A stretch of 57,995 nucleotides of DNA from Pedobacter sp. Its GTDB lineage: Bacteria > Pseudomonadota > Gammaproteobacteria > Pseudomonadales > Moraxellaceae. The translations under genes and the position numbers were made by a program. The stretch lies in assembly GCA_031119295.1 (NCBI GenBank), contig JAVHYE010000002.1, positions 1-57,995 on the forward strand, written 5' to 3'. Below, one piece after another: positions 36,230 to 36,645 of the stretch; position 1 is the first letter of the stretch; every line of letters begins with the position of its first letter. The notes under the pieces were generated by a model. That model saw only the letters and a list, made by a program, of their open reading frames with translations, did not search any database and had not been told where the DNA came from.

Positions 36230-36320
36230 GGTGAGGTGGCCGAGCGGTTGAAGGCGCACGCCTGGAAAGTGTGTGTACGTTAATAGCGTACCGAGGGTTC
36301 GAATCCCTCCCTCACCGCCA
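36230..36320 (+). tRNA. tRNA-Ser (anticodon GGA), CCA encoded
   Basis: GGTGAGG TGGCCGAGCGGTTGAAGGCGCACGCCTGGAAAGTGTG + variable arm + GAGGGTTCGAATCCCTC CCTCACC G CCA. Confidence 0.97.
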
Positions 36321-36323
36321 GAC

Positions 36324-36365
36324 AAATAAAAAAGGGCCCTGCATCGCAGGGCCCTTTTTTATTTG
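36324..36365. terminator. Rho-independent terminator of tRNA-Ser
   Basis: aaataaaaaaGGGCCCTGcatCGCAGGGCCCttttttattt. Confidence 0.9.
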
Positions 36366-36373
36366 TCCGTCGT

Positions 36374-36489
36374 GAGCGGTCGGACGAGAACACGAGCGGG
36401 TTCGACAACAGGGCAAAGCCCTGTTGAACGCCAGCTTTGCTGGCGGCCCCGAAGGGGCGAGGCCGCAGGCCGAGTAATCCCGACCGCTC
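36374..36489. repeat. tRNA-Ser-adjacent multi-hairpin element (outer 10-bp stem enclosing four triloop hairpins)
   Basis: GAGCGGTCGG (36374-36383) pairs CCGACCGCTC (36480-36489); inner stems 36406-36426, 36429-36445, 36446-36458, 36461-36471, loops aaa/ttt/gaa/gca. Confidence 0.8.
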
Positions 36490-36645
36490 TCCGCTTCAAC
36501 ACCCTACTTGTTTATGCACCTCTTTGGATGTTCTCCCGGCGCAGCCACTTTTCGCTGCCACAGCCCATCGACTGTCGAATGTTCTTCATCTGTTTATAGG
36601 CGCTGGACTTCATAACGATCTCTGCGTTCGCCAGAGACACTAAAA

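Follow-up and report, generated by a model that had tools for sequence, protein, structure and literature searches.

The most likely explanation for the element that follows the tRNA-Ser(GGA) gene in the window (the whole 57,995-nt stretch of DNA analyzed here) is a cassette inserted into a tRNA T-loop. We regard it, with a probability of roughly 0.55, as a decayed representative of a widespread cassette of hairpins, ∼62 to 90 bp long, which would insert 3′ of the sequence [T/G][C/T]GA, would have moved as single-stranded DNA (ssDNA), and would later have been amplified. The cassette is of the same superfamily as the Escherichia coli RtT RNA and the Aggregatibacter AaHKsRNA22. Sequence comparison showed where the cassette inserts and that the target is not duplicated; it also showed that the copies are homologous, share a conserved four-hairpin fold, and carry tRNA 3′ ends matched in isotype.

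The sequence-only reading of the window had proposed an outer 10-bp stem (P1) enclosing four triloop hairpins, together with an insert that splits a tRNA T-arm into two halves, all located behind tRNA-Ser(GGA) and its terminator. All stems read as proposed, the insert had exactly the predicted boundaries between GGGTTCGA and ATCCC, and a long terminator-like hairpin lay between the tRNA gene and the element (Table 1). Together, the four hairpins spanned positions 36406 to 36471; the cassette terminated 3′ in GAGTA, an instance of the conserved motif GARTA, and the ATCCC half of the T-arm began at position 36477. The predicted fold of the element was very stable both as RNA (minimum free energy of -69.9 kcal/mol, z = -6.1) and as DNA (z = -5.7), with none of 200 shuffled sequences equally good in either case. 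The split T-arm had been assigned to tRNA-Ser. Its reading as part of a tRNA was borne out by better-preserved copies elsewhere, but the Ser likeness of the window copy had decayed, its 3′ arm being identical to the adjacent tRNA-Ser(GGA) at only 10 of 18 positions. A weak match to our covariance model R1 (described below) at positions 2468 to 2538 of the window (17.7 bits, E = 0.04) was perhaps a degenerate copy or a chance hit.

Table 1. Positions of the element, its parts, and the preceding tRNA gene in the window.
Feature	Position	Strand	Basis
tRNA-Ser(GGA), host tRNA	36230-36320	+	ARAGORN; Rfam tRNA, 58.2 bits
Long terminator-like hairpin GACAAATAAAAAAGGGCCC-TGCATCGCA-GGGCCCTTTTTTATTTGTC, between tRNA-Ser(GGA) and element	36321-36367	+	Sequence
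P1 5′ arm, GAGCGGTCGG	36374-36383	+	Sequence; arm comparison
T-arm copy, 5′ half, GGGTTCGA, equivalent to nt 51-58	36398-36405	+	Sequence; split-tRNA alignment
Hairpin cassette insert, 71 nt, between T-loop positions 58 and 59	36406-36476	+	
Hairpin H1, CAACAGGGC-AAA-GCCCTGTTG	36406-36426	+	Sequence, fold, covariation
Hairpin H2, CGCCAGC-TTT-GCTGGCG	36429-36445	+	Sequence, fold, covariation
Hairpin H3, GCCCC-GAA-GGGGC, C(GAA)G triloop; best conserved of the hairpins	36446-36458	+	
Hairpin H4, GGCC-GCA-GGCC, C(GCA)G triloop	36461-36471	+	
3′ arm (ATCCCGACCGCTCTCCGC), decayed copy of tRNA-Ser 3′ end; contains P1 3′ arm	36477-36494	+	
P1 3′ arm, CCGACCGCTC	36480-36489	+	Sequence; pairs with 36374-36383

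Further copies were sought by a pattern search of 369 genomes of the class and by a scan of named genomes, taken as the matches listed. At least 129 copies were collected and scored with R1, a covariance model whose four seed copies came from the window's genome (three copies) and from a second genome in its genus (one copy). The impression that relatives occur near tRNAs in other gammaproteobacteria proved right, with copies behind many tRNA types in other genera. Loci among the matches listed came from Marinobacter, Rheinheimera, Alteromonas, Thioalkalivibrio, Salinisphaera, enterobacteria, Zetaproteobacteria, and others. The searches were keyed on conserved motifs, and the named scan also demanded ATCC after GARTA, which favors tRNA-like ends, though not tRNA adjacency. 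The counts include tandem copies, and many copies are related; the numbers given here therefore refer to elements and not to independent events.

A structured RNA had also been suggested, with covariation as the check, and covariation across the copies was indeed strong. In the 129 collected copies, 94% of pair cells were standard and 26 of 28 pairs had changes on both sides; the covariation score was 0.52, compared with 0.137 after shuffling and at most 0.073 after sliding, in an alignment that leans toward R1 because it was fitted to this model. The four hairpins occurred in a conserved order, and the unpaired motifs GAACG, CCGAAGG, and GARTA were kept across tRNA types and at non-tRNA sites. 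Insert length ranged from 62 to 90 nt, with modes at 68 to 69, 73 to 74, and 81 nt.

A tRNA gene on the same strand was present within 800 nt upstream of 101 of the 129 collected copies. Six copies had a tRNA downstream only, three had any tRNA on the opposite strand, and for 22 no tRNA was detected, the fetched stretch ending too early in several of these. In the 90 testable copies, the 18-nt 3′ arm matched its own tRNA at a mean of 16.1 of 18 positions, versus 10.4 for other isotypes; it was a perfect copy of the tRNA's own 3′ end in 60 and matched its own tRNA strictly best in 78, with 17 anticodons involved among the collected copies. In relatives, the tRNA 3′ end often reappeared, inverted, at the position of the P1 5′ arm: the complementarity of this upstream arm to the 3′ arm scored the equivalent of at least 8 bp in 43 of 115 copies (mean score, 13.6, versus 10.5 against the arms of other isotypes). 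A GAAC box was found upstream of 72 of 115 copies, compared with 13 in a control stretch. The window's genome itself held two further copies, each after a tRNA-Glu gene, as expected of the tRNA-derived repeat family that had been proposed. Their 3′ arms repeated their own tRNA over 13 nt (AATCCCTGTGGGG) and 12 nt (ATCCCCGTGGGG) and tracked the difference between the two tRNA paralogues. At many loci (L019, L099, and L162 among others), the stem of the post-tRNA terminator reached, still as an inverted repeat, into the 3′ end of the tRNA itself, resulting in a trailer with the order tRNA end, terminator, inverted tRNA end.

The sequence-only reading had also considered an insertion-site scar, and several copies did split recognizable tRNA genes, in each case between nt 58 and 59: tRNA-Ser(GCT) in L150, tRNA-Arg(CCT) in L244, tRNA-Arg(ACG) in L175, and tRNA-Tyr in L165 and L168. 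When the flanks were joined without the cassette, ARAGORN called tRNA-Ser(GCT) in L150 and tRNA-Arg(CCT) in L244, and the remaining three gave continuous but decayed alignments to tRNA-Arg or tRNA-Tyr. The window-type element looks like an insertion, beyond a mere scar. Joining the flanks of L174 (280 to 368) yielded a chimeric tRNA with a Gln-type 5′ part and a Ser-like 3′ part, as if the cassette had brought its tRNA 3′ end to a new target. Insertions into the D-loop of tRNA-Ser were located at GGTTGA^A or GGCTGA^A (L092, L162, and L076). Overall, the left flank of the cassette was TCGA in 97 cases, GCGA in 7, and TTGA in 6.

Beyond what had been proposed, the family was found to include the E. 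coli RtT RNA and the Rfam family AaHKsRNA22 (see below), and non-tRNA palindromes were targets as well. Three copies in the window's genome lacked a tRNA and lay inside a dispersed palindrome, CTTACTTTCCTTTGG-CGA[..]ACCAAAG. The same palindrome was empty in the sister genome G005, where it read TTACTTTCTTTTGGCGAACCAAAAGAAAGT with similar flanks. Comparison of the empty form (TTTTGGCGA^ACCAAAA in G005) with the filled form (GGCGA[..]ACCAAAG in G000 and G006) revealed that the latter equals the former plus the cassette at CGA^ACC (GGCGA^ACC), with target duplication absent. Palindromic repeats with the cassette in their loop were seen in G000 and G006 at L005, L007, L008, L059, L063, L065, and L067; the dispersed palindrome was conserved for about 40 bp before and about 60 bp after the cassette and is possibly a MITE of its own. 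In addition, a 43-bp cassette core was present at the 3′ end of a tnpB fragment (L020, 1501 to 1619; G010 C78), at GGA^ATCC. A role of this core as a TnpB omega-RNA guide scaffold was rejected, as homologous tnpB copies (G011) were hairpin-free. Because homologous tnpB ends show an empty GGAATCC-type site, we read L020 as another insertion.

In cmscan, the window matched AaHKsRNA22 (RF02902) with 52.3 bits, above the curated gathering score of 39.8. It matched RtT (RF00391) at full length (1 to 130) with 32.8 bits (E = 2e-4), below the cut-off of 45; as it falls short of this curated score, we do not assign the window copy to the RtT family proper. R1 recovered all four rttR units of E. coli with E values of about 1e-7 to 1e-6. 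With rttR found by R1 and both AaHKsRNA22 and RtT matched by the window, the two Rfam families meet in this element, and the R1 matches establish common descent of the window element with E. coli rttR. RtT, a by-product of the E. coli tyrT operon, has been puzzling for decades and is regarded as a small RNA (sRNA) of tRNA operons or as a repeat. The parts of rttR in E. coli K-12 followed the same order as in the window, namely, the outer arm (GGGGAAGGAT), GGTTCGA, the hairpins, CCCGAAGGG, GARTA, and ATCCTTCCCCCACCACCA. RtT of tyrTV shares with the window copy its location downstream of a tRNA, the outer stem, GGTTCGA, the hairpins with CCCGAAGGG, and GARTA, and further has a copy of the tRNA 3′ end with CCA after GARTA, as well as tandem units. 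In contrast, the window copy follows tRNA-Ser, its perfect hairpins are longer, its tRNA end has decayed, and a terminator-like hairpin precedes it. The rttR array of E. coli is dynamic, since matching genomes contained 1 to 14 RtT-like places (median, 3; rttR, L025 867 to 1037), and 715 of 5426 genomes had no match. In enterobacteria, RtT-like elements also lie upstream of gatY, rbfA, and cvpA (PMC2965389).

AaHKsRNA22 has the same hairpins and the same GAACG and GARTAA motifs as the window. It differs in G412 (12 matches), where most copies start at a AAAGTGCGGTCA-like sequence and where, for most, no tRNA was detected within the fetched stretch. We take the AAAGTGCGGTCA-like start to resemble the Pasteurellaceae DNA uptake signal. 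The AaHKsRNA22-like copies in G412 (2.0 Mb) were located at L236, L241, L243, and L245 to L253. A literature search yielded no description of AaHKsRNA22 function.

Ranked second, together with a purely RNA-based or terminator function, and in our view unlikely, is a functional structured RNA of tRNA operons, i.e., an RtT-type sRNA processed by tRNA enzymes, whose fold and tRNA-like CCA 3′ end would be kept because the RNA acts in the cell; a part in the stringent response, for instance, has been proposed for the E. coli RNA. Consistent with such a role, rttR is annotated as ncRNA in E. coli and had a match in 4711 of 5426 genomes, and P1 of the window pairs perfectly, yet both of its arms have diverged from the tRNA sequence. 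G-U exceeded A-C at paired sites of the sense strand (120 versus 42; 57 versus 35 without the H3 closing pair), which also fits selection at the RNA level. The cassette was in sense orientation in every case seen; since TTCGAA is palindromic, a pure sequence target should yield both orientations, yet only sense copies were seen. However, a terminator-like hairpin precedes the window element, and of 75 first copies, 32 were scored as having a clear T-run terminator; transcription would thus often be expected to end ahead of the element. Moreover, the same cassette occurs in non-tRNA palindromes, at a tnpB end, and beside uptake-signal-like sequences, and the exact empty sites are not predicted by a conserved RNA. 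In minimum-energy RNA folds, from which loops were counted, 175 of 260 triloops were GNA and 235 of 260 were closed by C-G, whereas the GNRA and UUCG tetraloops were almost absent.

Far less probable is a template-switching relic of tRNA duplication, in which a fold-back at the terminator hairpin would have copied the 3′ end first inverted and then direct, with the hairpins as further snap-back products and no mobile element involved. In its favor, at the tRNA-Ser(GGA) locus of G001 (L226) the unit is accompanied by another tRNA 3′ end and terminator, so that the order runs from the tRNA 3′ end and its terminator through an inverted T-arm and a direct T-arm half to a 3′ end and terminator again, versus the empty locus of G003 (L224), which has no copy before apparently the same next gene; the recurrent GAAC/TTCGAA box upstream would fit as well. 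Against this reading, the hairpin order and the motifs GAACG, CCGAAGG, and GARTA recur both behind different tRNA types and at non-tRNA sites, an outcome that independent snap-back events would not produce. Also highly improbable is an integration footprint left by a tyrosine recombinase (phage or island), with the hairpins as part of the attachment site. The 3′ ends of tRNA genes are common integration sites of tyrosine integrases and become duplicated in the process, and the duplicated 3′ end here begins in the T-loop. However, the cassette ends at the dispersed palindrome share no core longer than CGA, one cassette serves 17 anticodons, and the window element had no match in 50,697 phage and 72,556 plasmid records. 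Given these missing matches, a phage or plasmid origin was rejected as well.

For the preferred reading, a mobile hairpin cassette, the target is usually a hairpin loop; in most cases this is the T-loop of a tRNA, which the cassette enters between nt 58 and 59. The cassette would move as ssDNA folded via its stable C(GNA)G triloop hairpins, and an HUH/Y1-type enzyme (IS200/IS605- or REP-like) would cut and join it in trans. GNA triloops are described as exceptionally stable DNA minihairpins (Yoshizawa 1997, as cited in PMC6479982), and IS200/605 transposases bind ssDNA hairpins, with a target tetranucleotide flanking the left end (PMC6006769). This helper enzyme is putative, since no Y1 gene adjoins copies and the occurrence of Y1 genes in the genus does not parallel that of the copies: the window's genome (G000, gene C99) and G006 have one Y1 gene, and none was found in the copy-carrying G001 and G007. 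No transposase genes were found adjoining copies, a Y1 transposase as neighbor gene was rejected, and R1 gave no convincing match at any Y1 gene of this genus. Insertion would inactivate one copy of a duplicated tRNA gene. Simple insertion leaves unexplained why the full unit also contains the tRNA 3′ end in inverted form. This unit, made up of an inverted T-arm and TTCGA, the cassette, and a tRNA 3′ end with its terminator, would then have been amplified in tandem by recombination between tRNA 3′-end repeats, and the same recombination may keep these repeats identical to the functional tRNA. Without an intervening terminator, as in E. coli tyrTV, the unit would be cotranscribed and appear as RtT RNA, which would be one transcribed member of the cassette family.

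Insertion of IS200/IS605 elements does not involve target duplication. The cassette resembles them in its strand-specific insertion, 3′ of a fixed short target, in one orientation and without target duplication, and in its hairpins near the ends; hairpins near the ends and a short target sequence are also found in IS200/IS605 (PMC6006769). It differs in being noncoding and in having no transposase gene beside its copies. REP/REPIN elements, associated with Y1 transposases (RAYT), are likewise small nonautonomous hairpin repeats and are thought to move as ssDNA (PMC6006769, PMC8266576), with a GTAG (PMC6006769) or GTGG tetranucleotide at the hairpin foot. In contrast, REP-type GTAG feet were absent from the cassette, whose 5′ flank is TCGA, GCGA, or TTGA; its target is [T/G]YGA, with tRNA T-loops preferred, and it has four hairpins in fixed order and no adjacent Y1 gene. 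A literature search retrieved no description of insertion into a tRNA T-loop or of a T-loop target. We tentatively suggest that the cassette may represent a new class of nonautonomous ssDNA transposable element with a preference for the T-loop (nt 58/59), which is spread through many gammaproteobacteria and has RtT and AaHKsRNA22 as members.

The target rule and the empty sites make the mechanism directly testable. If the copies are insertions, RtT, AaHKsRNA22, and many unannotated post-tRNA repeats would form one mobile family with a very specific target within essential genes, and this would explain the copies of tRNA 3′ ends found behind so many tRNA genes.
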